Positions 2,514 through 15,453 of a DNA stretch of 34,482 nucleotides are shown piece by piece. Position numbers and translations under genes: made by a program. The first letter of the stretch is position 1. Each line of letters begins with the position of its first letter. Where the stretch lies: contig JAODBB010000127.1 in the NCBI GenBank assembly GCA_025463745.1, forward strand, positions 1-34,482. The letters are read 5' to 3'. Source of the stretch: Subtercola sp. (GTDB lineage: Bacteria; Actinomycetota; Actinomycetes; Actinomycetales; Microbacteriaceae). The notes beneath the pieces are model-generated. The model had not been told where the DNA came from. It saw only the letters and a program-made list of their open reading frames with translations, and made no database searches.

Positions 2514-2645
2514 TGTTCTCCCTGATTCTTCGGTGCTGCCGGGTTTTGGTGTCCGGCTCCGCAATCTTACTGGCGCTAGATTGAGCACACGAAACGGGCC
2601 CGTGCGGGGTTCATGACATGCAGGCGCAGCCGGCTGGGAGCAGCA

Positions 2646-3950
2646 ATGCCAGACTTTCTCCTCAACCTCAACATCGTCGAGGGGCCGGTCATCATCACGT
2701 TCGTGTTGTTGAGCGTCGCTTTTGTCATCTACCTGCTCGTTCGCAGGCCCACGGTGATCTGGCTGCTCTCGGCGTTGGTGGGTGTGCTGGGCGGTGCGTG
2801 CATCGCGCTACTGACCGTGTTTCTCACCGATCAGGTGTGGGATCTGTTCGGCACCCAGTTTCTGCCCGAAACAACCACGTGGATCGTGCTCACGTTCTCT
2901 GCCGTCGGCCTGGCCGTGGCGAGCCTGTTCAAAACGCGCTGGTGGCGCAAGATGCTCGCCGGCATCGCGATCGTGGTCTTCGTGCTGACCGGCACGCTCG
3001 GCGTGAACGCGAGCATCGGCATCACCAAGACGCTCGCCGCGCTCATCGGCGTGAACACCGAGAAGCCGCTCGATGTGCCCGATGCCAACGGCACGCATCC
3101 ACCGACCCCGGGGCCGACCCCCGCCGGGCCGCTCTACCAGACGTGGTCGCCGCCGCCGAACATGCCGTCGGAGGGCACAGTCGGCACCATCGACATTCCG
3201 AATACGAACTCCGGATTCGCGGCTCGCAAGGCGCTCGCCTACCTGCCGCCCGCCGCGTTGGTCTCGAATGCGCCGGCGCTTCCGGTGATCATCCAGTTGA
3301 ACGGCATGCCCGGCAGTCCGGGGCTCGACGACCCGAAGGCCATGCTCGACAAGCTCGCGGCCTCGAACAAGGGCCTCGCGCCCATTGTGATCAACCCCGA
3401 TCAGCTCGGTGCCTCGAATGTCGACCCGATGTGTCTCGATACTGCTTCGCTCGGCAAGGTGGAGACGTACATCATGAAAGACGTCGTGCCGTACGTGCGA
3501 ACGCACTTCAATGTGCTGCAAGACCCGAAGGACTGGACGTTCTTGGGCTTCTCGAACGGTGGTGAATGTGCGGCTTACTTCGGCGCGAAATACCCGAGTG
3601 TATTCGGCAACATCGTCGACATCTCGGGCGACGAGTACCCCGGCGTCGAAGACAACAGCACGGCGAAAAACTTCTTCGGCGGCGATAAGGCCGCTTACCA
3701 GGCCACGTGGCCGGCCAACATCATGGCGAAGGGCACCTACCCCGACACGATGGCGGTGTTCACGGTGGGGGCGCTCGATCAAGCATTCGCTGTGGGAGTC
3801 AAGAACACGTACGACGCGGCGGTGAAGGCCGGCATGAAGGCGACCTACACCGAGATACCGGGGGCCGGTCACGACGGTACTGCTCTCGATGGCGGGCTGG
3901 CCGTCGGTTACGCGGCCCTCTACCCGAGACTGGGGCTCAGCAAGCCGTGA
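2646..3950 (+). CDS. membrane-anchored esterase of the esterase D / antigen 85 fold
   Basis: 434 residues. The N-terminal 125 residues contain about four hydrophobic segments (roughly 13-33, 37-60, 79-95, 103-122). A Pro-rich linker (about 145-175) follows, then a C-terminal alpha/beta-hydrolase domain. The nucleophile elbow is GFSNGG at 301-306 (Ser303); the probable catalytic His lies in GAGHDGT near 409. This layout matches actinobacterial proteins annotated as alpha/beta-hydrolase-fold or esterase PF00756, with the catalytic part outside the membrane. ATG at 2646 is preferred to the upstream ATG at 2613 because GGGAG lies just before it. It is divergent from glyS. The substrate is unknown; an acyl ester of the envelope is a guess. 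Confidence 0.8.
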
Positions 3951-3974: not shown

Positions 3975-4745
3975 TTACATGATGTGCCGCAGCGCCGCGA
4001 AGACCTCGCGCGGTCGCTCGATGATGCCCAGATGGCTGGCGTGCAGCAGCACGGTGAAGGAGGCCCCAGCGATGCCGGTGGCCAGTATCTCGGAGTGCCC
4101 GGGCGGTGTCGCACGGTCTTCGGCACCGACGACGATCGCGGTCTGCGCCGTGATCTCGGGCAACCGCGCCGTGAGGTCAACGGCGCCCATGGCGTGGCAG
4201 ACCACGGCATAGGCGTCGAGGTCCATCTGAGTGAAGATCTTCATCAGCCTCTCGAACTGCTCGGGCTGCGACTGGCGGAACTCCGGGGTGAACCAGCGTG
4301 TGCCCTGGAATTCCGCCATCGCTGCGAAGCCCTTGACCCGGGCGGTCTCGGCCCGGGTCGCCCAGCTCTCGGGGTCGTGGTAGCTCGACGTGGTATCGAC
4401 CAGGCCGAGAGCCACGACGAGGTTCGGATGCCCGATCGCAAGTGCCTGCGAAACGCATCCTCCCATCGACGCACCGACCACGGTCGTTCGCGAGACACCG
4501 CGATTCTCGAGCATCAGGGCGACCCGCTCGGCCATGTCTTCGATCGTGGCGGAGTCGCCGATCGGAGATTCGCCGTGGCCGGGCAGGTCGACCGTGATGA
4601 GCTGGTGATGGGCGCTGAAGAGCTCGATGATCTCCGGCGTCCACATCGCTCGGCTGAGTGCCAGCGAGTGCAGCAGAAGCACGGGCGAACCGCTTCCGGT
4701 GACCGAACCGGCCAGTTGTGCATCCGTGTCGAAGAAATCGCTCAT
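3975..4745 (-). CDS. alpha/beta-hydrolase, enol-lactonase/ester-hydrolase type
   Basis: 256 residues. Visible features are the oxyanion region LLLHSLALSRAMW (23-35), DLPGHGES (53-60), the nucleophile motif GASMGG at 91-96 (Ser93), an acid in GAEDRATPP (Asp210) and a His in LLHASHLG (His238). This is the order found in 3-oxoadipate enol-lactonase (PcaD) and related hydrolases, but no pca gene is nearby, so I would not name it PcaD. It starts 8 bases after the stop of the substrate-binding lipoprotein gene and is the last gene of the leftward catabolic operon. Its role is probably hydrolysis of an ester, lactone or C-C bond in an intermediate of that pathway. Confidence 0.85.
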   Translation of the reverse strand: MSDFFDTDAQLAGSVTGSGSPVLLLHSLALSRAMWTPEIIELFSAHHQLITVDLPGHGESPIGDSATIEDMAERVALMLENRGVSRTTVVGASMGGCVSQALAIGHPNLVVALGLVDTTSSYHDPESWATRAETARVKGFAAMAEFQGTRWFTPEFRQSQPEQFERLMKIFTQMDLDAYAVVCHAMGAVDLTARLPEITAQTAIVVGAEDRATPPGHSEILATGIAGASFTVLLHASHLGIIERPREVFAALRHIM

Positions 4746-4753
4746 CGTTCGGG

Positions 4754-5815
4754 CTACGGTGTGGGCGTCGTCGTGGGCGAGCCCGTCGGCGCGGCGGTTG
4801 CGTACTTCGACACGAAGGAATTGTCGATGTACTGGGTGATGTCGGTCGGAGCCGGCGTACCCGTCGTAGCCGCGGTGATCTGGAAGGCCTGGTTGATCAG
4901 CGCCGGATCAACCACAGGATCGGTCGACCACACATTCTTGAAGAAGTTGTAGGCGTAGGCAGCTTGCGTGGGGTCGGTATCGCCCGAATACTGCTCGATT
5001 GCGGCGATCGTGGCGGCCTGATCGGTCTGCAGCAGTTGCAAGCTCTGCACTTCGCTCTTCACAAATGCCTCAACCAGGTCAGGATGTGCCGTGAGGTAGT
5101 CCTTCGTCACGACGACGCCGGCGGAGGGAAACGGGATGTTCGACAGCTGCGTCAGCGCCTTGTACCCCTTCGTGAGTGCTGCTGCGGCCTGCGGCGGCTG
5201 AGAGAGGATGGCCGAAACCGCGTTCGATTGCAGCGCTGCAAGCTGACCGGGAATCGAGTTGACGTACACAGGCTGCACGTCGTCGCGGGTCATGTGGTTC
5301 TCGGCGAGGTAGGCCGTCAGCGCCTGATCGCTCTGCGAACCGGGCGTGGTGAGGCCGATCTTCTTGCCCTTGAGGTCGGCTGCCGAATTGATGTCGGAGC
5401 TGGTGTAGACCTCGAGGTTGAAGACGGGGCGGGTGATGGCCACGAACATGAGGTCCGAGCCCTTCATGATGGCCGCAGCAGAGTCGGTGGCGCTGCCGAC
5501 GGCAATGTCGACGCTTCCGCTCAGCAGGGCCGGAATGATCTGGGAGCTCGAGTTGAGCGTGCGGAGGTCGACGTCGAGTCCGTTGTTCTTGAAGACGCCT
5601 TCGCTGATGCCGACGTACAGATCGCTGTACGACGCGCCAGGGGAGGAGTATGCGACCGAGACTTTTTGAAGCGGCACGCCGCTGCTATTGGTGCTTGTCG
5701 CTCCGGCCGCGCATCCCGAGAGCACGAGGCCGACGGTCGCTGCGAGCGCGAGAGCCAGTCCCCCTGCTCTGAAACGTTTAGCAGAACGACGCACCGTGGG
5801 GGGTGACACAGGCAT
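4754..5815 (-). CDS. ABC transporter substrate-binding lipoprotein (taurine/sulfonate/NMT1 type)
   Basis: 353 residues. A basic N-terminus and hydrophobic helix end in a lipobox LVLSGC with the lipidated Cys at 35. The body resembles NrtA/SsuA/TauA/THI5-like periplasmic proteins: an early VAYSSPGASYSDLYVG, KIGLTTPGSQSDQALTAYL, and a tail that ends Pro/Thr-rich. It binds a small organic solute outside the membrane and delivers it to the permease encoded upstream. ATG at 5815 is chosen because AAAGGAAC precedes it; the longer frame to 5872 is simply a read-through of an 18-bp tandem repeat. Location within a flavin monooxygenase/hydrolase operon suggests import of that pathway's substrate. The ligand cannot be deduced. 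Confidence 0.9.
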   Translation of the reverse strand: MPVSPPTVRRSAKRFRAGGLALALAATVGLVLSGCAAGATSTNSSGVPLQKVSVAYSSPGASYSDLYVGISEGVFKNNGLDVDLRTLNSSSQIIPALLSGSVDIAVGSATDSAAAIMKGSDLMFVAITRPVFNLEVYTSSDINSAADLKGKKIGLTTPGSQSDQALTAYLAENHMTRDDVQPVYVNSIPGQLAALQSNAVSAILSQPPQAAAALTKGYKALTQLSNIPFPSAGVVVTKDYLTAHPDLVEAFVKSEVQSLQLLQTDQAATIAAIEQYSGDTDPTQAAYAYNFFKNVWSTDPVVDPALINQAFQITAATTGTPAPTDITQYIDNSFVSKYATAAPTGSPTTTPTP

Positions 5816-5826
5816 GGTTGTTCCTT

Positions 5827-5862
5827 TCATGGTGACGGGTGTTGTCATGGTGATGGGTGTTG
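5827..5862. repeat. 18-bp tandem repeat in the leader of the lipoprotein gene
   Basis: Two adjacent 18-bp copies of tcatggtgacgggtgttg differ at one base and sit in the 100-bp gap between permease and lipoprotein genes, immediately upstream of the lipoprotein Shine-Dalgarno. Each copy carries in-phase minus-strand ATG codons. Similar leader repeats occur before the ABC ATPase and the flavin reductase genes. Confidence 0.75.
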
Positions 5863-5915
5863 GTGATGGCATTGATGGCTGGCTGTGTGGAGTGAAGCTG
5901 CGATGAAGGGCGGGC

Positions 5916-6758
5916 TCAGCTCGAGTCGGCCCAGTAGGCGAACCGTCGCTCGACGAGCCCGACGAGCTGGTTGATCAGAATGGCGATGATCGCGATCACC
6001 GTGACGGTGGCCATCGCTTCATCCATCTCGAAGTTCGAGGTCTGAACCTGAACCAGACTGCCCAGGCCCACCGCTCCCAAGAAGAGTTCGGCGACGATCG
6101 CACCGACCAGACCACGGCCGACGGCCAGGCGGATTCCGCTCAGGATGTAGGGAAGGATGGCCGGGAACGCCACTGTTCGCAGCGTGTAGCCCCGGCTGGC
6201 GCTGAACACCGTGGCGACGTTCATGTAGTTGCGGTCGAGGTTGCGTGCGGCGCCGATGGTGCTCATCAGCAGCGGCACCGCGGCGCTCCACACCACGAGC
6301 ACGATGCGCGAGGTTTCGTCGATGCCGAACCAGAAGATGATCAGCGGCAGAAACACAACGTACGGAACGGAGTTCAGAATGTTGATCCACGGGTCGACCA
6401 GTTCGCGAAGCACGGGTGCTCGCCCGAGAATGAGCCCGATCGGAATGGCGAACACGATGGAGATCGCCATTCCGATTCCGAACGAGGCCAGCGTGGCAGC
6501 CACGGGGGCCCACAGGGTGCCGTTGGTGAGCATCGTCCACAATGCACCCGCCGTGCCGATCGGTGAACTGCTGAAGGTCGAGCTGACGACCCCGCTGCTT
6601 GCCAGAATCTGCCAGATGAGCAGCCCGAGAACGATGCCGGTGACACCGAGAATGAGACTGCGGTTGCGCAGACGCTTCGATTTCGGCCGGAGCTTCTCGT
6701 ACATGTCGGTCGGAGCCGCAGACTTCTTCTGATGACTGAGCTGCACTGTCGCGGTCAT
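5916..6758 (-). CDS. ABC transporter permease (SsuC/TauC type)
   Basis: 280 residues. After a basic, cytoplasmic N-terminus of about 32 residues there is a first membrane helix (SLILGVTGIVLGLLIWQIL), and about six helices in total. The cytoplasmic coupling (EAA-type) loop is visible as SRGYTLRTVAFPAILPYIL followed by SGIRLAVGRGL. This is the binding-protein-dependent inner-membrane component family of nitrate/sulfonate/taurine importers (PF00528). The ATG overlaps the stop of the ATPase gene by four bases (ATGA), so the two are translationally coupled; an AAAGGA also lies upstream. It forms the channel of the importer with its neighbours. Confidence 0.93.
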   Translation of the reverse strand: MTATVQLSHQKKSAAPTDMYEKLRPKSKRLRNRSLILGVTGIVLGLLIWQILASSGVVSSTFSSSPIGTAGALWTMLTNGTLWAPVAATLASFGIGMAISIVFAIPIGLILGRAPVLRELVDPWINILNSVPYVVFLPLIIFWFGIDETSRIVLVVWSAAVPLLMSTIGAARNLDRNYMNVATVFSASRGYTLRTVAFPAILPYILSGIRLAVGRGLVGAIVAELFLGAVGLGSLVQVQTSNFEMDEAMATVTVIAIIAILINQLVGLVERRFAYWADSS

Positions 6759-7570
6759 GCTGTCACCATCCTTTCTTTCGCCCAGGATTGACTCATGACC
6801 AACGAGAGAATTTCGTCGGCCTGCCTCAGGAACTCCGGGCTGCGCTTGAGTTCTGGCGATCGGGGCCGATCGAAGGTGACGTCGACGATTTCTGCCACGT
6901 GAGCGGGGCCAGCGGAGAACACCACGACACGATCGGCGAGAAACACGGCCTCGTACACGTCGTGCGTGATGAAGATTGCCGTCTTGCCGGCGGTTGCGCC
7001 GCCGGATTGCCAGATGCGGAGAAGCTCTTCTTGCATGACCTCGCGGGTCTGTGCGTCGAGTGCGGCGAACGGCTCATCGAGCAGGATGAGCTCCGGGTCG
7101 GTCGCCAGAGCGCGAGCCAGATTCACCCGCTGGGCCATACCGCCGGAGAGTTCGCTCGGATGCGCTTTGCCTCGCCCGGCGAGCCCGACCAGGTCGAGAA
7201 GCCATTCGGCCCTGGCCTTTCCGGCCGCGTCGTAGCGCTTTTGTGCCTTCAGCCCGTAGACGATGTTCTCCATCACCGTGAGCCACGGAAATAGCGACGA
7301 GTCTTGAAACACCATCGACCGGTCGACGCCCGGGCCCGTGATTTGTTTGCCGTCGAGTTTCAGCTCGCCCGACAACACGGGATGGAGGCCCGCGACGGCC
7401 TTCAAGAAGGTGGTCTTGCCGCATCCACTCGGGCCGACGGCCACGATGAGTTCGTTTTTTCGTATGTCGAAGTCGAGCCCGCTGACGGCGAGCGAGAGCT
7501 TGCCGTTTCGTTTGGAGTGGTGCCCGAGTTTCAGGTCGCGCACTTCGAGAAGTGCGGAGGAGTCGTTCAT
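6755..7570 (-). CDS. ABC transporter ATP-binding protein (SsuB/TauB type)
   Basis: 271 residues. All nucleotide-binding motifs are intact: Walker A GPSGCGKT (46-53), Q-loop region VFQDSSLFPW (87-96), signature LSGGMAQ (141-147), Walker B LILLDE (161-166), D-loop and H-loop ITHD (His203). The family energises uptake of nitrate, sulfonate, taurine or thiamine precursors. GGAAGGA precedes the ATG. It is the first gene of the importer block; its start lies 90 bases downstream of the amidohydrolase stop, in a gap holding a tandem repeat, so it may be expressed by read-through or from its own weak promoter. Confidence 0.95.
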   Translation of the reverse strand: MNDSSALLEVRDLKLGHHSKRNGKLSLAVSGLDFDIRKNELIVAVGPSGCGKTTFLKAVAGLHPVLSGELKLDGKQITGPGVDRSMVFQDSSLFPWLTVMENIVYGLKAQKRYDAAGKARAEWLLDLVGLAGRGKAHPSELSGGMAQRVNLARALATDPELILLDEPFAALDAQTREVMQEELLRIWQSGGATAGKTAIFITHDVYEAVFLADRVVVFSAGPAHVAEIVDVTFDRPRSPELKRSPEFLRQADEILSLVMSQSWAKERMVTA

Positions 7571-7589
7571 TTCATTCCTTCCAACATCT

Positions 7590-7623
7590 TTGGTGGATTG
7601 CCATCATTGGTGGATTCGCATCA
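7590..7623. repeat. 17-bp tandem repeat between amidohydrolase and ABC ATPase genes
   Basis: Two adjacent 17-bp copies (ttggtggattgccatca, then the same with two changes) are followed by two shorter fragments of the same theme (tgtggatcagg, tgtggattcag). On the minus strand each full copy begins with ATGATG. The repeat fills most of the 90-bp gap. Confidence 0.7.
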
Positions 7624-7660
7624 TGTGGATCAGGTCAGTGTGGATTCAGCGGTTCACTAT

Positions 7661-8740
7661 TCAGGCCTCGACACGCAGCCGATCGGCGGGCGTTTCGCCC
7701 GACAGATCGAGCGAGAGGTTGAACAGCTTCTGGGCATTTCCGCCGAGTACGAGATCTGCCTCGGCGTCGGTCAGGCCGAGGTCGGCCGGCGTGCCGTTGT
7801 ACGGCTGGTAATCGGTCATCGGAAACGGGCAGTCAGACCCGGCGAGTACGTGATCGACGCCGGCGACCTCGAGCAGATACTTCAGCGGCGGCCGCTCGAA
7901 GAGCACCGTGTCGTAGTAGAACCACTTCACGTACTCGATCGCAGCACTCAAGTTCGACGCATCCAACTCCGGCCAGCGGTGAAAACCGGCGAGCATGCGA
8001 CCGTATTGGTAGGGAAAGAATCCGCCACCGTGAACCAGCACGATCTTCAGGTCGGGAAAGCGCTCGGGCACCCGCCCGGCGATGAGCGACAGCGCCGCCA
8101 TCGTGGTCTCGAACGGGTTTCCCACCAGAATGTTCGCCTGGTGCTGCCGCATGCGCGAATCCAGTTCGACCGAGGCCGGGTGCAGGATGATCGGCAGACC
8201 GAGTCGCTCAGCGGTCGCCCAGAGGGGGTCGAAGTCGCGCCGGGCAAGGGTGCCGAGCTCGGGGTTGGCTGCGAGCATCCCGCCGACGGCGCCGTGTTCG
8301 GCTGCGAACTCGAGTTCCATGGCTGCTGCTCCGCCGTCGAGGTCGGGCAGGGCTGCGACAAAACGCGAGCGATTCGGCTCGTGCACCACATCGACGAACG
8401 TCTCGTTCAAGACGCGGCACCATTTGCGCTGCAACCGCGGGTCGAGGGGCATTTTCACCGCGTCCATCCACGGCCCGATGATCGAAACATCGATGCCGTG
8501 CTCGGTTTGGCGAGCGCGATGGCGATCGATGTCGCGAAGGTCGAGCGGTACACCGCGCCCGAGCGAACGGATGCCGTCGGCGACGAGGTTGAACTCGCCT
8601 CCCGAACTCAGCCGTTCGGAACGCAGACCCTCGGGAACGCGATCGAACGAGATCTGGGGAATGAGGTGGGTGTGGATGTCGACGTGCACGCGGCCGTTTC
8701 GGCGCCCGCCAGTGGCGGTCAGTTCAGTGTCGAGGCTCAT
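7661..8740 (-). CDS. amidohydrolase 2 family metal-dependent hydrolase/decarboxylase
   Basis: 359 residues. It opens with the metal-binding HxH motif in VDIHTHL (His23, His25), followed by FDPLWATAERLGLPIILHPAS (third His), a fourth His in IVLVHGGGFFPYQYGR, and the terminal Asp in HVLAGSDCPFP. This is the layout of PF04909 (ACMSD, gamma-resorcylate decarboxylase, 4-oxalomesaconate hydratase-like enzymes), members of which hydrolyse or decarboxylate ring-cleavage products. Its ATG overlaps the stop of the upstream alpha/beta-hydrolase (ATGA), so the two are coupled. The frame is open 115 codons further upstream but that part is a shadow of the neighbour. The exact reaction is unknown. Confidence 0.9.
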   Translation of the reverse strand: MSLDTELTATGGRRNGRVHVDIHTHLIPQISFDRVPEGLRSERLSSGGEFNLVADGIRSLGRGVPLDLRDIDRHRARQTEHGIDVSIIGPWMDAVKMPLDPRLQRKWCRVLNETFVDVVHEPNRSRFVAALPDLDGGAAAMELEFAAEHGAVGGMLAANPELGTLARRDFDPLWATAERLGLPIILHPASVELDSRMRQHQANILVGNPFETTMAALSLIAGRVPERFPDLKIVLVHGGGFFPYQYGRMLAGFHRWPELDASNLSAAIEYVKWFYYDTVLFERPPLKYLLEVAGVDHVLAGSDCPFPMTDYQPYNGTPADLGLTDAEADLVLGGNAQKLFNLSLDLSGETPADRLRVEA

Positions 8741-9573
8741 GAGGGGTACCGTTCGTTCAGAAATGCCAGCACGTCTTCGTTGAATCGGGCCGGTTGTTCG
8801 ATGTGGGGAAAGTGGCCGGCGTCGTCGTACACTCGCAGCGTCGAATCGGGGATGCGGTCGTGCATGAGGGCCGCATAACCACGCTCTCGCAGCGGGTCTT
8901 CGGCTCCCGCCACCAACAGCGTCGGCACCGTGATGTTCTCGTAGACGGTGTTGTCTTCTTGCCCGAAATGGCTGCGAACCTCCACGGCCGGCGAACGAAA
9001 ACGGGCCGCTGCGAGCGACTCCCACGCGCCGGGAACGATGCTCACCTCGTACTTCTTCGTCACGTAGTCTTCGTCGGCGGCCCACTTCGGGTCGTGAAAA
9101 AGCGTGCTGATCAGGGTTCTCATGCCCTCGCGGGTGGCGTCGTAGTTCAAGATGATGCGGCGTGCTTCGTTGTCGGGGCTGAATCCGCCGCTCGATGAGA
9201 GCACCATCACGCTGACGTCGAAGGTTCCCTTGCCCTCGGCGACGCTGCGAATGAGTTCTGAGCCGCCCATCGAGCTGCCGATGAATGCGGCGGGGCCGAG
9301 ATCCATCGCCTTCAGAAAGCGCGCCATGTGCTGCAGGCGGCGGGGCCGGCCGTTGACGAAGTCGTATACCTTGTCGGTGCCGCCGAATCCCAGCCAGTCA
9401 GGGGCGATCACCCGGTAGTGCTCTGCGAGGGCGTCGATGGATGCTCCCCAGCTGAGCTCGGCAGAGGCACCGAATTCGCCGCTGTGCAACAGCACCAACG
9501 GCCGGCCGGTGCCCGCTTCGAGGTAGTGGGTACGAATGTTGTCGACGATCAGAGTCTTGGAACCGGTACTCAT
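8737..9573 (-). CDS. alpha/beta-hydrolase, meta-cleavage-product-hydrolase-like
   Basis: 278 residues. Motifs: LVLLHSGEFGASAELSW (26-42, oxyanion loop), DWLGFGGTDK (59-68), nucleophile elbow GSSMGG at 99-104 (Ser101), acid in VAGAEDPLRERG, and His in DDAGHFPHIEQP near 257. The sequence style resembles C-C bond hydrolases such as BphD/HsaD, and the Gly-rich loop after LLHSGEFGASA fits that group. The start lies 3 bases after the stop of the LLM monooxygenase gene and has no good Shine-Dalgarno, so translation is probably coupled. Likely hydrolyses an opened-ring or ester intermediate made by the monooxygenase. Substrate not deducible. Confidence 0.88.
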   Translation of the reverse strand: MSTGSKTLIVDNIRTHYLEAGTGRPLVLLHSGEFGASAELSWGASIDALAEHYRVIAPDWLGFGGTDKVYDFVNGRPRRLQHMARFLKAMDLGPAAFIGSSMGGSELIRSVAEGKGTFDVSVMVLSSSGGFSPDNEARRIILNYDATREGMRTLISTLFHDPKWAADEDYVTKKYEVSIVPGAWESLAAARFRSPAVEVRSHFGQEDNTVYENITVPTLLVAGAEDPLRERGYAALMHDRIPDSTLRVYDDAGHFPHIEQPARFNEDVLAFLNERYPS

Positions 9574-9576
9574 CGA

Positions 9577-10728
9577 TCAACCCACGGTCGAAAGCTCGAG
9601 CTCGGCCAGTCGCGGCTGCACGTGCTTGGCGTAGTTCTGCAGCCCGACGACCGTCTCGTCGTGCTCGAGAAAGCCCGACTGACCCATCAGCAAGAAGTGA
9701 CCGATGCCGCCCACCCGGTCGTTGAAGCGCTTGATCTGCTCGTACACCTGGTCGGGGTTACCGGCGAAGACGATGCCCTGTTCGATCAGCGAGTCGAGGC
9801 TCGTATTCTCGGGAATCAGGTTTCCGGGCCCGCTGCTCTTCACCGCACCGATGTTGGCTCCGACCGACGCGTATCCCGGGGGGTTCTTGAACTGGATCGG
9901 CACCTTGTTGGCGCGCATGTACCAGAGCAGTTTCTCAGCGCCTTCGCGGCCCGATTCTTCGGTGTCGCCGGTGTAGACGAGGCCGGCATAGGCGAACCGG
10001 TCTGGCGCCGGAGCAGACAAACCGAGTTCTTCGCGGCGCGCCTTATAGGAGTCGTAGACGACTTTCGCACCCTTGTGCCCGCCGAGAAAGGTGGCGCAGA
10101 CATAACCCCGCTCGCCGATCTCGGCGGCGCCGCTCACGCTTCGCGACGACATCCAGATGGGCGGATGCGGCTGCTGAAAGGGGCGCGGCCAGATGTTGAC
10201 CGAACGGAACTGGAAGTACTTGCCTTCCCAGCTGAATGGGCCGTCGGTGGTCGTCCATGCCTTCTTGATGAGATCGTGGGCCTCCCACATGCGCTCGGCC
10301 ATGCCCACCGGGCTCGCGTTCGAGGGCAGAACCTCGTAGGGAACGCTGCGCACGAAACCGACTTCGAGGCGGCCGTGCGAGAGATTGTCGACCAGCGCCA
10401 TTTCTTCGGCGACCCGCACCGGGTCCGGCCGGTTGGCGATCGGGTTGCCCAGCAGCACGATTCTGGCGTTCTTCGTGATGCGAGCCAGGATTCCGCTGAT
10501 CAGGGGCGCTGCAGGGTTCATGCAGGTCGCGGTGGCGTGATGCTCGTTCACCATCACGTTCAGGCCGAGTTCGTCGGCCACGACCCATTCGTCGAGGTAA
10601 CGATCCCAGAGGGCGGCACCGATTTTCGGGTCGTACAGGCCGTTCGGCAGAGACACCCGAATCGAGTCATAGGTCGATTCGTCGGGCAGGTAGGGGTAGG
10701 CGGCCTCATTGAAGTACCACGTTTGCAT
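9577..10728 (-). CDS. LLM-class flavin-dependent monooxygenase (luciferase-like)
   Basis: 383 residues, a TIM-barrel luciferase-family enzyme (PF00296). Recognisable parts are WVVADELGLNVMVNEHHAT (near 48-66, with the family's EHH), GNPIANRPDPVRVAEEMALVD, LSHGRLEVGFVRS, WPRPFQQPHPPIW (barrel strand with the conserved Pro-rich segment), and GNPDQVYEQI near the end. Such enzymes use reduced FMN from a separate reductase to hydroxylate, cleave or desulfonate substrates; here the reductase is probably the gene at 12524-13672. AAGGA lies 9 bases before the ATG. It sits between two alpha/beta-hydrolases, the pattern of a degradation pathway started by oxygenation. Reported actinobacterial pyridine-ring-opening systems also use this type of two-component pair, but the substrate here is unknown. 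Confidence 0.93.
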   Translation of the reverse strand: MQTWYFNEAAYPYLPDESTYDSIRVSLPNGLYDPKIGAALWDRYLDEWVVADELGLNVMVNEHHATATCMNPAAPLISGILARITKNARIVLLGNPIANRPDPVRVAEEMALVDNLSHGRLEVGFVRSVPYEVLPSNASPVGMAERMWEAHDLIKKAWTTTDGPFSWEGKYFQFRSVNIWPRPFQQPHPPIWMSSRSVSGAAEIGERGYVCATFLGGHKGAKVVYDSYKARREELGLSAPAPDRFAYAGLVYTGDTEESGREGAEKLLWYMRANKVPIQFKNPPGYASVGANIGAVKSSGPGNLIPENTSLDSLIEQGIVFAGNPDQVYEQIKRFNDRVGGIGHFLLMGQSGFLEHDETVVGLQNYAKHVQPRLAELELSTVG

Positions 10729-10740
10729 GATGAAAAATCC

Positions 10741-11559
10741 TTACGAGTTCTGAAGAACGGAAACGCGGCTCACGAAATCTGCAACGAGTGAACCGAAGGC
10801 CTGGGGTTGTTCGCGCTCGGGCTCGTGGCCCGCGTGGAGAATCGTTTCGAGGGTCGAGCCGGCGATGGCGTCACGGTAGGCCGCGGGCAGCGCCGGGCTG
10901 ATGAAGCCGTCGGAGTCGCCTTGCACGATGAGTGTGCGGGTGGTGATGCGCGGAAGGTGGCCCAGCAGCTTCGGGTTATGCAGGTAGGGCTTCCATCCGT
11001 AGAGCGCAGTCGCTTCGAGATTGCGAAAATGCACCTGCAACTGCTCGTCGCTCATGCTGGAGAAGTCGACGATGCCGAAGTCGGGGTCGGCGTACATCGC
11101 TTCGCGAACAACCTTCGGGGTGACCGCGTACATGTCGAGCACATCGAGCTCCAACGGGCCGCCCACCTTGACGCCGAGCGGGGTGCTCAGCACGAGCGAG
11201 CTGATCCAGACCTGTGACCGGATGGCCACTTCCGCCGCGATCCAAGCGCCGATCGAGCATCCGACGACCGCAACGGGGCCGTGCTCGGCCGCGATCTGCT
11301 CGATCAGGTCGAGGTAGATGTACGCCACGTCGTCGATGGCGTCGACGGCGGCCGGTCGTGCGGATTCGCCATAGCCCGGGTGGCTCGGGGCGAAGACGTG
11401 ATACCCCTCACTCAGCACCTGGATGGTGTCGAGGCTCGCAGCCGCGCCGGTGAGGCCGTGCAGGAAGAGTACCGGTGGCCCACCTCCGGCCTCGAAAACC
11501 TCGAGGGGAATGTCGCGAACCTGCACCGTGTGGCGGTGTACTGACGAGCGTGCTGGCAT
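10741..11559 (-). CDS. alpha/beta-hydrolase, first gene of the catabolic operon
   Basis: 272 residues. Features: VLFLHGLTGAAASLD (oxyanion HG, 30-44), APSHPGYGESARP (57-69), nucleophile motif GCSIGA at 100-105 (Ser102; an uncommon Cys before the Ser), acid in VQGDSDGFISP and the His in LHAGHEPEREQP. It has the strongest ribosome-binding site of the operon (AAGGAGG, 6 bases before the ATG). It is divergent from the IclR gene, with 179 bases between them holding the shared operator motif. It could hydrolyse the imported substrate (an ester or amide) before oxygenation, or a later intermediate; sequence does not decide. Confidence 0.88.
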   Translation of the reverse strand: MPARSSVHRHTVQVRDIPLEVFEAGGGPPVLFLHGLTGAAASLDTIQVLSEGYHVFAPSHPGYGESARPAAVDAIDDVAYIYLDLIEQIAAEHGPVAVVGCSIGAWIAAEVAIRSQVWISSLVLSTPLGVKVGGPLELDVLDMYAVTPKVVREAMYADPDFGIVDFSSMSDEQLQVHFRNLEATALYGWKPYLHNPKLLGHLPRITTRTLIVQGDSDGFISPALPAAYRDAIAGSTLETILHAGHEPEREQPQAFGSLVADFVSRVSVLQNS

Positions 11560-11605
11560 CGTTGCCTCCTTCGTTCTTTGGAGAAACTACGCCCAATGAG
11601 CAAAT

Positions 11606-11629
11606 AATGCAATACTTGTGCGTAATACG
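11606..11629 (+). promoter_or_regulatory. candidate IclR operator, copy 1
   Basis: AATGCA, seven bases, then TGCGTAATACG. The same spaced motif (AATGCA-N7-TGCGTAATRCG) recurs in inverse orientation at 13933-13956 before the flavin reductase gene. The halves form an imperfect dyad (ATAATGCA against ATTACGCA, 6 of 8 matching). It lies in the IclR/operon divergent spacer and overlaps the region where a leftward promoter is expected (TTGCGC and CATTAT on the minus strand, 19 bases apart), so binding could control the operon. Confidence 0.6.
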
Positions 11630-11738
11630 CGCAACAAGATCTAAATGGGCGAGAACGAAACGCGCTCACGGCGTTGCTTATGTAATTTTAGATTCACCGC
11701 TAAACTCGTGGCGCACAACTTGATCGAGACGAGAAAAA

Positions 11739-12527
11739 ATGGATACAGCCGTAGCCAAGCAAGCCGGAGCACGACAAAAGACGCGATCGGCGTCGACGGT
11801 GCAGTCGGTTGATCGGGCATCCGAGATTCTGGATGTTCTCGTCGACCAGGGGCGTTCGATGACCGCCCTCGAGCTATCGCAGAAGACGGGCCTCGAGCGC
11901 ACGATCGTTCATCGACTGCTGCGCAGCCTTGTGGCCAACAAGTACGTCGAACAGGCCGAATTCTCGCGCTACGAGCTGGGGCCGCGACTGCTGCGACTGG
12001 GCAACGCGTACCTCGACCGACTGCCGTTGCGGCACATCGCGCTGCCGTACGTCATCGACATCAGCAATGGCTTGACCGAAGACGAGCCGTGGATCGTCGG
12101 TGTGGCCGTGCCGGTAGAAGGCTTTTCGATCGTGGTCGACCGGCTCTGGCGGCCGGCCGCACCGCTCGACAGCCTGCTCGACACAGGTACGCGCATCCCG
12201 CTGCCCGACAGCGCCACCGGCCTCAGTCTGCTCGCCCGCTACGACGAAGCGACCGCGCGCGCGATCTGCGGCGAGGAGAAGTACGAATCGATCAAGGGGC
12301 GGCTCGAGAAGATCCGCGAGCGCGACTATCTGGAATTCAACTCGGAGTTGCGGCCCGGCATCAGCGCTATCGCGGCATCGATCGGCGATCGTTCGGGCCG
12401 GCCCGTTGGTGCGATCTCCGTGGTCGGCCTCAAACTCGAGCCGTACCTGAACGAGAACTCCGATATCGCGCAGCGGGTGGCGCGGGCGGCGCACGCCCTC
12501 ACCACCGTCGTGGCGAACGCGGGCTAG
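11739..12527 (+). CDS. IclR-family transcriptional regulator
   Basis: 262 residues. The N-terminal winged helix-turn-helix runs from about 22 to 90: SVDRASEILDVLV, then MTALELSQKTGLERTIVHRLL (the HTH), then a wing ending YELGPRLLRLG. The C-terminal effector domain (about 95-255) contains the usual PLPDSATGLSLLA and a C-terminal SVVGLKLEP segment. Family members sense aromatic or small organic acids and act as repressors or activators of adjacent catabolic genes. It is divergent from the catabolic operon and its last base pairs overlap the convergent flavin reductase gene: both stop codons use the same CTAG. Probably the local regulator of both transcripts. Confidence 0.93.
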   Translation: MDTAVAKQAGARQKTRSASTVQSVDRASEILDVLVDQGRSMTALELSQKTGLERTIVHRLLRSLVANKYVEQAEFSRYELGPRLLRLGNAYLDRLPLRHIALPYVIDISNGLTEDEPWIVGVAVPVEGFSIVVDRLWRPAAPLDSLLDTGTRIPLPDSATGLSLLARYDEATARAICGEEKYESIKGRLEKIRERDYLEFNSELRPGISAIAASIGDRSGRPVGAISVVGLKLEPYLNENSDIAQRVARAAHALTTVVANAG

Positions 12528-13672
12528 AGGCTGCCGCCCGCGCCGTCGATGGCGGCCGTGGCCATGGTCTTGAGGTGGTCGATGACCTGCTGGATGCGCG
12601 CCTTGGCGCGGTCGGCGTCACGATCGGCCAGCGCTGCCGCGACGTCGGTGAAGCGCGCGGCGTCGATGGTGGGCTCCCAGTCGGTGCCCTCGAGGGCGCG
12701 CAGCCAGATGCCGTGCACCCCGATGCGACGATGAAAGTCGATGAGGTACGCATTGCCAGAGAGGGCGACAAAAGCCTCGTGGTACTCGCGTGCTGATGCC
12801 ACGAAGGCGTCAAGGGTGGGTGCGACGCCGGTTCCACTGCGAGCGGCGCGTTCAGCGCTGCGCAACAGCCGTGCGAGTTGCTCGTCAGACGCCGTGTTGA
12901 TCACGTGCTCGACGATCGAGAGCTCAACGGCGCCACGGGCATCCAGAGCCTCTCGGGCATTCTGAGCGCTCAGGGGAGTAATGCGGTAGGCGTCGTCGGA
13001 GTCGCGTTGCACGAGGCCCTCTGCCGTGAGCTTGGTGAGCGCGTAGTAGGCCTGGGCTCGGTCGGCATCGAGGCGCGACATCAACGCGTCGACCTCCAGC
13101 TCCTTGCCGAGCGGCAGTTCGCGGGTCAGAATCAGTTCGCGCAGCTTGGCGTAGGTCTGCTCTTGCAGGGCATTCTCGAAGCGACCGAACTTGCCGCGAA
13201 AATACGTGAGCGGCGAGCCCTCGCGGGCGACCGCGTTCTGCACTTCGGCCAGAAAAACCGTGTGGGTGCCGCCCGTTGCGAGCTCGGTGACCCGGCATTC
13301 GAAATATGCCAGCGCCTTGCTGATCAACGGAGACGAGGTCTGTTCGCGAATGATCTCGACACCGGCGAACTTGTCGCCGCTCTTGGTTGCGAAGGCGCTG
13401 GCGAGATCGGCTTGTTCGTCGGCGAGCACGTTCACGGCGAAGAACCCTGCTTCGCGAATGGCGGCCTGCGTGGAGCTCGATCGGTTCAGGCAGATGAGGA
13501 GCATCGGCGGATCCATCGAGAGCGACGAGATCGCGCTCGCGGTGGTTCCGAAGTCGTGGCCGTCGGCGTGCGTCGTGATGATGGTGACGCCCGTGGCAAA
13601 GCGCGAGATGGCGTCGCGAAACACGGTCTGGTCGGCGAAGTCGGGGCGCTGTTCTTCGGTCATGGTCGGCAT
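12524..13672 (-). CDS. flavin reductase fused to a GntR/FCD-like domain
   Basis: 382 residues in two parts. Residues 14-170 are a flavin reductase-like FMN-binding domain (PF01613): FRDAISRFATGVTIITT, FGTTASAISSLSMDPPMLLICLN, FFAVNVLADEQADLASAFA, and HTVFLAEVQ. Residues 170-370 resemble a GntR-type winged helix (YAKLRELILTRELPLGKELEVDALMSRL then ALTKLTAEGLVQRD) plus a helical FCD ligand domain (EYHEAFVALSGNAYLIDFH, IDHLK). The usual recognition-helix pattern R-T-P-V-R-E-A-L reads RAQAYYAL, so DNA contact residues look lost while the ligand fold is kept. The reductase would feed the LLM monooxygenase; the added domain may sense substrate and gate activity. An alternative start is ATG 13663, whose ATGA overlaps a short leader ORF. 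Domain call is firm, sensor role is inference. Confidence 0.88.
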   Translation of the reverse strand: MPTMTEEQRPDFADQTVFRDAISRFATGVTIITTHADGHDFGTTASAISSLSMDPPMLLICLNRSSSTQAAIREAGFFAVNVLADEQADLASAFATKSGDKFAGVEIIREQTSSPLISKALAYFECRVTELATGGTHTVFLAEVQNAVAREGSPLTYFRGKFGRFENALQEQTYAKLRELILTRELPLGKELEVDALMSRLDADRAQAYYALTKLTAEGLVQRDSDDAYRITPLSAQNAREALDARGAVELSIVEHVINTASDEQLARLLRSAERAARSGTGVAPTLDAFVASAREYHEAFVALSGNAYLIDFHRRIGVHGIWLRALEGTDWEPTIDAARFTDVAAALADRDADRAKARIQQVIDHLKTMATAAIDGAGGSL

Positions 13673-13722
13673 CTCGTCGTTCTCTTTCTGCGATTCGGAC
13701 TCTGTGATTCGGAGTCGAACGT

Positions 13723-13782
13723 CATGGAGTGGACGGCCATGGAGTCGACGGTCATGAGGTCATCGCTCATGAAGTCGTTCAG
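13723..13782. repeat. 15-bp imperfect tandem repeat in the flavin reductase leader
   Basis: Four consecutive 15-bp units each begin catg (catggagtggacggc, catggagtcgacggt, catgaggtcatcgct, catgaagtcgttcag). On the minus strand they form an open frame from ATG at 13770 whose pentapeptide pattern is M-T-V-D-S, M-A-V-H-S, M-T-F-D-S. That 36-codon frame ends at TGA 13660-13662, which overlaps the second ATG of the reductase (ATGA). No clear Shine-Dalgarno precedes the leader frame. Confidence 0.6.
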
Positions 13783-13802
13783 CACTGCCGCCGTTCGGGC
13801 AT

Positions 13803-13834
13803 GACATCGTTCGGTCAAGACATCGTTCGGTCAA
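13803..13834. repeat. perfect 16-bp tandem duplication in the flavin reductase leader
   Basis: Two identical adjacent copies of gacatcgttcggtcaa. They sit between the leader hairpin (13833-13891) and the 15-bp repeats, inside what would be the 5' untranslated region of the reductase mRNA. Confidence 0.75.
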
Positions 13835-13891
13835 GAACCGGCAGAGCGCCCGAGGGCTGCAACGAGAGGTCGGGCTACTCTGCCGGCTCTT
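13833..13891 (-). promoter_or_regulatory. large 5'-leader hairpin upstream of the flavin reductase gene
   Basis: Arms of 21 and 22 bases (13833-13853 and 13870-13891) pair with one mismatch or wobble and one bulge, leaving a 16-nt loop; the core is CCGGCAGAG / CTCTGCCGG. Given the promoter predicted just upstream, the transcript would begin inside or at the edge of the first arm, so the mRNA would start with this stem. After it the minus strand reads TTCTTG, a weak U-run, so either an mRNA-stabilising 5' stem or an attenuator is possible. Confidence 0.6.
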
Positions 13892-13893
13892 GC

Positions 13894-13923
13894 ATTTTAT
13901 CCCCTCTGAGGTGTATTGCACAA
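13894..13923 (-). promoter_or_regulatory. candidate promoter of the flavin reductase gene
   Basis: On the minus strand, TTGTGC (13923-13918) and TAAAAT (13899-13894) are separated by 18 bases, a good match to a vegetative sigma-70-type promoter. This gives a start near 13887 and a leader of about 215 nt. The candidate IclR motif ends 10 bases upstream of the -35 element, an activator-like position. Confidence 0.5.
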
Positions 13924-13932
13924 CGATGTGTT

Positions 13933-13956
13933 CGCATTACGCAGTGCTTGTGCATT
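13933..13956 (-). promoter_or_regulatory. candidate IclR operator, copy 2
   Basis: Read on the minus strand this is AATGCA, seven bases, TGCGTAATGCG, matching copy 1 at 11606-11629 in 16 of the 17 defined positions. An additional 8-mer, TGCAATAC, is also present near both sites (11608-11615 on plus; 13913-13920 on minus). It sits upstream of the reductase promoter. Confidence 0.6.
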
Positions 13957-14020
13957 CATGAACCATTTGGATGTGCCGCTGGCCGCGCGACGTGGCGCCA
14001 GGCGAGCAGCTTGCCGTGTC

Positions 14021-14130
14021 GAGCGGCCGCGTGCCGCGTTGAGGCCGCCGCGCCGAATTGAGGCCGTTGCGCCGAATTGAGGCCGCTGCGCCGAATTGAG
14101 GCCGTCGCGACCGCGTTGAGGCCGCTACAC
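14021..14130. repeat. 19-20-bp tandem repeat, about six units
   Basis: Units of the form gaggccgNNgcgccgaatt begin at 14041, 14060 and 14079 (19 bp each). Flanking units of 20 bp at 14021 and 14098 end in cgcgtt, and a final partial unit starts at 14118. The units are contiguous without spacers, so this is a tandem repeat and not a CRISPR. Confidence 0.8.
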
Positions 14131-14163
14131 CTGCCTCAACGAGGGCGCAGGAGACTCACGTCG

Positions 14164-14317
14164 GAGCGGGTGGGGTGGGGCGGAGTGAGCGGGGCAGAGC
14201 TGAGCGGGGTGGGACAGAGCTGAGCGGGGCGGATGTGAGCGGGGCGGGCGGGGCGCGCGGGGCGGAGGTGAGCGGGGCGCGGGTCAGAGGTCAGCGGGGC
14301 GGGCGGGGCGGAGGCGG
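14164..14317 (+). other. G-rich tract with gagcgggg repeats
   Basis: About 150 bases with many runs of three or four G on the plus strand, organised around repeated tgagcgggg (near 14186, 14201, 14221, 14235, 14269). Strong G-quadruplex potential on this strand. Comparable G-rich tracts follow the two hairpins at 29371-29458 and 31750-31813, also to the right and on the plus strand. Confidence 0.6.
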
Positions 14318-14365: not shown

Positions 14366-14586
14366 TCTTGCGGTTGAACGAGAGCGAGTGGCAGGAGTTG
14401 AACACTGCATCTTCGACCGGGAAGGTCGACAGTCTGACATTGAAATACACCCGCAGGCGGTAGTGCTGAGTAGAACTTAGCGGAAGGGTGTAGCAGTCGC
14501 AACCCATCGCTCGCGCGCAGTCGTCGTAGCCCAGTTGGCGCACCCCCGTCGGTGCAGCCCCGTCGTCGCCACCCAGCGCACCTGCG

Positions 14587-15453
14587 TCAGCCGTACAGCA
14601 GCTGCCGGATGACCGGCTCGAGATGTTCTGCCGCCTCTGCATGCCCGAGGTCAGTAGGGTGCAGGCCGTCGTCACCGATCTGTTCTGGCGGCCCGGTGAA
14701 CCACCAGCCGTCGGCGATCGGGTCCACGTAGGGCAGGCTGTCGGAGTAGGCGGCGTCGGCGACCGCGTCGCGTGAGACCGTGATTCCGTCGGGCAAATCG
14801 GCGCTCACCCACGGGGTGCTCACCACCAGGATCTGGGCCTGCGGCGCGCGCAGACGGATCGTCTGCAGGGTGGAGAGGGCGGCATCGGTGATCTGTGATT
14901 GGGCGTAGCCCGCGTCGTTGTCGCTGCCCACGATGACCACCAGCGAGGCGTCGGCCGGAACCTCGGCGGCGAGGGCGGCGAAGGTCAGACCGTCGTCGCC
15001 GCGGGCGACATACCCCGAACTGTCGGCGGTGATCGCCTGCCAATCGGTGTTCAGGTCGGCGGAGATGAGAGCAGGAAAGCGGTCTTGCGGGCCGGAGTCT
15101 TGGGTAGAACCGCCGACGAACGAGTTGCCGAGGTAGACCACGAGCGGCGCGACTGTCGGAGGTGTGGTGCCGGTGGCCGGATCGGTGCTGGTAGCAGTGC
15201 TGGTAGCAGTGCCGGTCGCACTGCCGGTGGCGGGCCTGGTAGCGGTGCCTGGGGTCGTGAGCGTGGCCGCACCGGAATCGATGTGCGGCCGGCCGGGGCC
15301 CTTGAGCACCAGAACGGCCAGTGTGGCGGCGATGGCCGCGAGCACCACGACGGCGACCACGATCGCCACACGCGTGCGCCGGGTGAATCGTGCGGTAGTC
15401 ACGAGCGAGAACCTACCGGATCGCGCTGGGAACACGAGCGGCGAACGGAGCAT
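14587..15453 (-). CDS. membrane-anchored extracellular SGNH/GDSL-type hydrolase
   Basis: 288 residues. A single membrane helix (about 29-51) follows a basic N-terminus, then a Thr/Ala-rich linker (about 62-100), then a catalytic domain outside the cell. SGNH blocks: YLGNSFVGG at 107-115 (Ser111; Asn in place of the usual Asp of GDS), VIVGSDNDAG (Asn179) and the catalytic Asp/His in DDGLHPTDLGH (Asp262, His265). The family cleaves esters of lipids or surface carbohydrates. An internal GTG at 15402 (residue 18) would also give a complete anchor and is equally possible. The linker is encoded by short repeats. It is divergent from the PadR gene. Confidence 0.85.
   Translation of the reverse strand: MLRSPLVFPARSGRFSLVTTARFTRRTRVAIVVAVVVLAAIAATLAVLVLKGPGRPHIDSGAATLTTPGTATRPATGSATGTATSTATSTDPATGTTPPTVAPLVVYLGNSFVGGSTQDSGPQDRFPALISADLNTDWQAITADSSGYVARGDDGLTFAALAAEVPADASLVVIVGSDNDAGYAQSQITDAALSTLQTIRLRAPQAQILVVSTPWVSADLPDGITVSRDAVADAAYSDSLPYVDPIADGWWFTGPPEQIGDDGLHPTDLGHAEAAEHLEPVIRQLLYG

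Follow-up and report, generated by a model that had tools for sequence, protein, structure and literature searches.

A luciferase-like monooxygenase paired with an alpha/beta hydrolase, and a flavin reductase fused to a sensor domain, in a candidate catabolic island of Subtercola

We analysed a stretch of 34,482 nucleotides from Subtercola sp. (contig JAODBB010000127.1, our C181), hereafter the window, which belongs to a genome of 4.08 Mb in 253 contigs that is 86% complete. The window carries an island of genes, labelled A to J (Table 1), centred on a luciferase-like monooxygenase (LLM), G. A first-pass annotation, made from the sequence alone, had described a leftward block of eight genes, an IclR gene divergent from it and a convergent gene for a flavin reductase; all were found in place (the block at 3975-11559) with the families named, and the three hydrolase motifs were recovered in the translations of H, F and A. 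The gap of about 100 bp that it gave at the importer genes is obtained if B starts at about 5815, and the end that it set for the island, 13960, overshoots the start of J by about 290 bp. E starts with the ATG at 8740, in an ATGA overlap with the stop of F; the open reading frame listed to 9085 is over-extended.

Table 1. Genes of the island, with positions in the window
Gene	Product	Position	Strand	Basis
A	alpha/beta hydrolase, PcaD (3-oxoadipate enol-lactonase)-like, GASMGG	3975..4745	-	domain and NCBIfam models, solved relatives
B	NMT1/SsuA-type ATP-binding cassette (ABC) substrate-binding protein; start possibly ~5815	4754..5872	-	domain and NCBIfam models
C	ABC permease, TauC/SsuC-like	5916..6758	-	domain and NCBIfam models
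D	ABC ATPase, TauB/NtrD-like	6755..7570	-	domain and NCBIfam models
E	amidohydrolase-2, closest solved relatives ACMSD decarboxylases	7661..8740	-	domain models, solved relatives, alignment
F	alpha/beta hydrolase, HsaD-like below cut-off, GSSMGG	8737..9573	-	domain and NCBIfam models
G	luciferase-like (LLM) monooxygenase, module core	9577..10728	-	domain model, tree, predicted structure
H	alpha/beta hydrolase-fold partner of G, GCSIGA, Ser102/Asp217/His245	10741..11559	-	domain model, alignment, predicted structure
I	IclR/PcaR-type regulator, divergent	11739..12527	+	domain and NCBIfam models
J	HpaC-type flavin reductase fused to GntR and FCD	12524..13672	-	domain and NCBIfam models

The H-G pair and the J fusion, both missed by the first-pass annotation, are the strongest content of this analysis. 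A profile scan of genome contigs yielded at least 80 G loci, and more exist. We compared 84 loci, comprising the scan loci, four plasmid loci and a stretch from S. lobariae, with the duplicates L001, L002 and L016 dropped; 81 of them pass the filter used for pair geometry (G at least 43% identical over 340 residues). In 76 of these 81 loci an H gene precedes G on the same strand, the median gap being 15 bp. The gap is at most 100 bp in 73 of the 81; the exceptions are L075 (123 bp), L029 (209 bp) and L036 (1301 bp), where a second copy of G sits inside the gap. H was not seen in five loci (L011, L019, L033, L052 and L065), where no more than 650 bp, and as little as 1 bp, separate G from the start of the stretch or contig. 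An H match also precedes G in each of the loci that fail the filter (L004, L069 and L085), in L069 at more than 1 kb. As a control, we took all 41 other LLM matches of the window genome, which lie in 39 stretches, some shortened by contig ends, and detected an alpha/beta hydrolase in 1 of the 39. The profile used for this control was built mainly from H, so distant alpha/beta hydrolases may escape it, and that it recovers A and F does not independently demonstrate its sensitivity, since both were in its training set. We conclude that G and H are all but a fixed gene pair, beyond chance. The pair occurs in Actinomycetota, in Alpha-, Beta- and Gammaproteobacteria, in Chloroflexota/SAR202 (SAR202/Dehalococcoidia loci L023, L028, L029 and L032) and in Binatota, many of these being metagenome bins whose names may be wrong. 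Five loci (L044, L058, L063, L081 and L084) contain a second pair of the G-H type, with the order G then H in L081 and L084; the second G is 30-35% identical (49% in L058), which indicates that the pairing also holds below our identity cut.

H is an odd member of its fold. The folds nearest to its predicted structure (predicted local distance difference test score, pLDDT, 96.7) are those of a phospholipase, ABHD6, meta-cleavage C-C hydrolases and esterases. In an alignment of 81 rows (the window and 80 others from 77 loci), Asp217 is present in 81 of 81 rows and His245 in 80 of 81. The nucleophile position, readable in 79 rows, varies: 61 carry Ser, seven Gly, six Cys, four Gln and one Asp. 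Mapped on a quick tree of G, the state of this position changed between Ser and not-Ser, in either direction, at least seven times. The H proteins of Geodermatophilus, S. lobariae, R. opacus and Streptomyces have Gln at the nucleophile position, whereas the window H has Ser.

The convergent gene J does encode a flavin reductase, as had been proposed, but not a plain one: Pfam places Flavin_Reduct at 23-164, GntR at 169-225 and FCD at 241-365. PF01613 has three matches in the window genome, J included. In a draw of 296 genomes from the class, J has a match at E ≤ 1e-30 in 17 others, of which only that in G408 spans both halves of J; in a draw of 396 genomes from the phylum, four others have a match at E ≤ 1e-50. 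Among these five J-type relatives (that of G408 and the four from the phylum), examined with Pfam, Flavin_Reduct and FCD are found in 5/5 and GntR in 3/5, suggesting that the sensor is better conserved than a recognisable DNA-binding domain. The J-type fusions recur near oxygenase genes. An HpaB oxygenase gene adjoins the fusion in L180 and L181, and an LLM gene adjoins it in L146 and lies about 2 kb away in L182; inspection of L183 by eye recognised no oxygenase neighbour. By analogy only, J is probably the reductase partner of an oxygenase and carries a sensor for a ligand. The parallel is AbHpaC, the reductase of 4-hydroxyphenylacetate 3-hydroxylase, whose C-terminal MarR domain is reported to bind substrate and relieve self-inhibition (PMC10816480, in the part available). 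Like J, AbHpaC joins an N-terminal flavin reductase to a C-terminal transcription-factor-like domain; the attached domain is MarR there and GntR plus FCD in J, and the likely partner of J is an LLM. Our literature search, which covered mostly open-access papers, recognised no flavin reductase-GntR/FCD fusion and no described LLM-hydrolase pair.

Several further observations concern reductase fusions and the control region. In the region L180:4157-9307, the J-type fusion has RidA-type and M20-type genes near it in addition to the HpaB oxygenase gene, perhaps as part of a different pathway for a nitrogen compound. Another kind of fusion, of a flavin reductase to an HMGL-like C-terminal region, occurs at L147:2715-3833 and L148:5687-6805; by eye, both adjoin genes resembling those for coenzyme A (CoA) transferases and aldehyde dehydrogenases, and that of L148 lies near genes of the Amdase family and for a PEP-mutase. 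We also considered a shared operator, since one word of 15 bases occurs both in the H-I gap and upstream of J. This was rejected as evidence: an unbiased comparison of the two regions is non-significant, with 26 of 60 shuffles reaching the observed score, and counts of the pattern are circular, as it was derived from those same two sites. Scans for promoters and terminators gave about as many sites as shuffled sequence.

G itself matches the Bac_luciferase domain model above its cut-off (115.5 bits; cut-off 27.9). Fifteen NCBIfam subfamily models match it and none reaches its cut-off; the best is an F420 subfamily, at 59.8 bits against a cut-off of 166.9. The predicted structure (pLDDT 93.1) has as its closest solved folds RslO1, an Agrobacterium monooxygenase (2i7g), 3,6-diketocamphane monooxygenase (3,6-DKCMO) and luciferases, at identities of 15-23%. 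The type II Baeyer-Villiger monooxygenase (BVMO) 3,6-DKCMO takes ranks 4-6 and 8 (template-modelling score normalised to the query 0.69-0.70; 18-19% identity), below RslO1 and 2i7g. Since no subfamily cut-off is reached and the fold matches are this distant, the reaction of G cannot be read by homology. In a tree, the window G groups with those of Geodermatophilus, S. lobariae, R. opacus and Streptomyces (97% support in the SH-aLRT test). In R. opacus and S. lobariae, G lies amid short-chain dehydrogenase/reductase (SDR) or dehydrogenase genes and CoA-ligase or acyl-CoA-type genes (one locus by annotation, one by eye), a setting as expected for ring-ketone degradation. In Geodermatophilus and Streptomyces, a reductase and F lie near G (the Geodermatophilus reductase confirmed by Pfam).

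We then counted the other neighbours of G across the 84 loci, using single-seed phmmer searches (E ≤ 1e-6) of which samples only were checked with Pfam. Flavin reductases of two unrelated families lie within 8 kb of G in 14 loci (three checked), PF01613 in nine and PF03358 in five; none of the nine PF01613-type reductases also matches the GntR/FCD part of J. RibB-RibA genes occur in seven loci (samples confirmed), and together with the reductases they fit a demand for reduced flavin mononucleotide (FMN). F-type hydrolases, 42-54% identical, are near G in 17 of the 84 by best-hit count, on the same strand except in L013; a higher count of 65 was discarded, because the F seed also matches H. SDR genes are likewise found in 17 loci, but they are common genes and this may be background, so we do not take them as strong evidence of ketone chemistry. 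Amidohydrolase-2-type proteins are near G in eight loci (26-34% identity where listed), and hydantoinase A/B (HyuA/HyuB) and isochorismatase-like genes in four each (one HyuB and one isochorismatase Pfam-checked). Importers differ by locus and are of the NMT1/taurine, peptide or TctC type. L004, on plasmid p4 of Pukyongiella litopenaei, has a hydrolase-LLM-hydrolase core with hydantoinase A/B, a flavin reductase and a peptide-type importer; it lies between Tn3-family transposase genes and is perhaps a mobile form.

Around the core of the window island, E, the importer and A are variable additions. A is PcaD-like, below the cut-off of the PcaD model TIGR02427 (194.7 bits; cut-off 255.85), with a 3-oxoadipate enol-lactonase (2xua, E value 3.9e-34) as its best solved relative. 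The best model for F is HsaD, at 91.3 bits against a cut-off of 400. The best solved relatives of E are 2-amino-3-carboxymuconate-6-semialdehyde decarboxylases (ACMSD; 117.6 bits), to which it aligns in its HxH, HGGG..GR and D-PFP segments, residues of which we take to be metal ligands; unlike in an ACMSD pathway, no kynurenine-type gene was seen in the window block and no NCBIfam model matches E. At E ≤ 1e-50, E has no match in 295 other genomes drawn from the class. For the importer genes B, C and D, the TauABC/SsuABC models are the top match or among the top ones, and none of them reaches its cut-off (53.2 bits against 304.25 for the taurine substrate-binding model). The proposed scheme of import, oxygenation and hydrolysis is supported by the importer families, by J and by the reductases near G, but not as one conserved pathway: the only genes that recur closely with G are H and, in the 17 loci noted above, F. 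Since E and the importer types vary among loci, we see in the island a conserved core to which other genes were joined locally, and not a conserved eight-gene pathway.

The reading that we favour, tentatively and at somewhat under even confidence, is that of a substrate-inducible catabolic operon in which G would be a type II Baeyer-Villiger-like, two-component FMN monooxygenase and H would act on its product. The importer B-C-D would bring in a small organic compound, probably carboxylated or carbonyl-bearing. J would reduce FMN with NAD(P)H, probably faster once a substrate or intermediate is bound to its FCD domain, and G, with reduced FMN (FMNH2) and O2, would insert oxygen next to the carbonyl. 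H, co-made with G, would cleave or rearrange the resulting ester- or lactone-type product, often with cleavage by F as well; F and A could serve as later C-C or ester/enol-lactone hydrolases, and E, as an ACMSD-like decarboxylase or hydratase, may provide a finishing step along with A. Of this scheme, the gene content, the H-G pairing, the frequent presence of F, the fusion of J with its recurrence near oxygenases and the triad residues are observed, while inducibility, the sequence of reactions, the Baeyer-Villiger chemistry, the substrate and the gating of J are inferred. Baeyer-Villiger chemistry is the best lead because an LLM from Caenibius is reported to perform this oxidation on progesterone (PMC12239570), because FMNO paralogues of SAR202, which are PF00296-type monooxygenases, have been proposed as BVMOs (PMC5395668, PMC6946804), and because of the gene settings in R. 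opacus and S. lobariae. With 3,6-DKCMO and the Caenibius enzyme, G shares the LLM fold, an expected supply of FMNH2 from a separate reductase and a catabolic setting. It differs in being only about 19% identical to 3,6-DKCMO, and in that a hydrolase partner is not described for the Caenibius LLM in the available part of that paper. The SAR202 proposals have as partner only a hypothetical esterase or lactonase, and the word hydrolase occurs 0 times in either main text.

Several points weigh against this reading. The window G is long-branched, which makes its placement unsure (the Streptomyces row is likewise flagged), and the Geodermatophilus and Streptomyces loci have no acyl-CoA setting as far as read. 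Nothing seen here marks the two top fold matches of G as BVMOs: RslO1 is reported to form an epoxide (PMC11354265, in the portion available), and 2i7g carries no stated reaction; the identities of the fold matches, moreover, are only 15-23%. Genes for an alcohol dehydrogenase or a CoA ligase are absent from the window block. In 18 of the 79 readable rows H lacks the nucleophilic Ser on which a plain esterase would depend. Finally, the hydantoinase A/B and isochorismatase-like neighbours hint at amide or lactam substrates.

The last of these points bears on an alternative that is possible though unlikely, namely the oxygenolytic opening of an N-heterocycle, lactam or imide. G would here attack a C-N ring position, as in the RutA and pyridine systems, with H, F or A as a deformylase or amidase and E as an amidohydrolase. 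The NMT1-type importer fits, and the N-formylmaleamate deformylase Nfo appears at rank 49 of the fold list of H. The Rut pyrimidine pathway combines an LLM, a flavin reductase and an alpha/beta hydrolase with the same logic as the island; however, the RutA model is not among the 15 that match G, and with A, F, H and J the RutD and RutF models stay far short of their cut-offs. E, moreover, resembles decarboxylases. The kpi cluster for 4-hydroxypyridine of Arthrobacter IN13 resembles the island in having a flavin monooxygenase, an alpha/beta hydrolase, an amidohydrolase-superfamily (amidohydrolase-1) protein and a FadR-type regulator (PMC7356986, in part). Its amidohydrolase, KpiC, is from another Pfam family (Pfam01979) than E and acts as a dioxygenase, an FAH hydrolase is present, and an LLM-hydrolase pair is not described in the available part of that source.

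We consider a different division of labour rather more doubtful: H could be no plain esterase but one of two enzymes that together open a ring by oxygenation, G being the other, with the same module used with swapped parts in many islands and J gated by substrate. H would act through its His-Asp dyad on a labile product of G, such as a peroxide adduct, lactone or hemiketal. This would explain why H is so rarely separated from G and yet has changed its Ser several times. The module, with swapped importers, hydrolases and reductases, would then serve many catabolic islands, those of SAR202 included.

It is improbable that the island is an epoxidation module in which G epoxidises an alkene or arene and H opens or rearranges the epoxide. 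The chemistry reported for RslO1, the closest fold to G, and the epoxide hydrolases among the profile and fold relatives of H speak for it; however, alpha/beta epoxide hydrolases use an Asp nucleophile, which occurs in a single readable row of H, and the window H has Ser.

Two further alternatives are very unlikely. The first-pass annotation had leaned in part towards sulfonates, and scavenging of a sulfonate, sulfone or amine by an SsuD-, SfnG- or NtaA-like enzyme would suit the taurine-type importer, whose parts match TauABC/SsuABC models best or near best. This lean is not borne out, since B is far under its model cut-off, as is G (26.6 bits against 518.2 for SsuD, 33.4 against 382.95 for SfnG and 18.4 against 279.7 for NtaA/DmoA), and the three hydrolases and E would have no evident role. 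That G is instead an F420-dependent or non-oxygenase LLM paralogue, with the reductase a bystander, would agree with its best NCBIfam match, but J, one of three Flavin_Reduct matches in the genome, sits inside the island, two unrelated reductase families and RibB-RibA recur near G, and FMN-type LLMs outrank F420 ones among the fold matches of G.

To place the island in the genus, we compared its flanks, with glyS and an esterase gene (2613-3950) upstream and a GDSL gene (14587-15453) after it. All 12 Subtercola genomes, that of the window among them, have a match to the esterase, while one of the 11 others has a match to G at E ≤ 1e-40. Four stretches around esterase matches were examined (L170 of G004, L171 of G005, L172 of G009 and L173 of G006). 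In L170, L171 and L172, glyS, the esterase and the GDSL gene are all matched, and the distance from the esterase to the GDSL gene is about 2.5 to 3.7 kb, versus 10.6 kb in the window; L173 matches the esterase alone. In L172 the esterase is immediately followed by a gene for an 826-residue protein with a lysyl-phosphatidylglycerol synthase domain (Pfam); the copy in G005 is similar by eye, and that in G004 is in two overlapping frames. The best matches to the G009 protein in the window genome, which is incomplete, are 37-43% identical. As the same flanks enclose other genes in three other Subtercola, the island is probably a local insertion or replacement by which local genes were displaced or replaced. 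None of ten flanking open reading frames scanned has a mobile-element domain, and tRNA and Rfam scans (gathering score) of the window gave zero matches, so no tRNA-type integration site was found. Two sequence features lie between J and the GDSL gene. The stretch at 14382-14485, beside the latter, has counterparts in three other Subtercola (90-93% identity over 87-104 bp), inverted relative to the flanks in L170 and L172 and not in L171; it was found in a single copy in the window genome and has no Rfam match. At 14033-14314, upstream of J, are imperfect tandem repeats of about 19 bp and G-rich repeats.

LLM-type FMN monooxygenases are reported to be greatly expanded in SAR202, where roles in the breakdown of stable organic matter have been put forward as hypotheses (PMC5395668, PMC6946804, in the parts available). 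The fixed H-G pair offers a concrete, testable second enzyme for LLM oxygenases of this kind, and the forms of H that lack the Ser are a natural control on its mechanism. J, in turn, suggests that a flavin reductase may be tied to a ligand sensor by other means than the MarR domain seen in AbHpaC.

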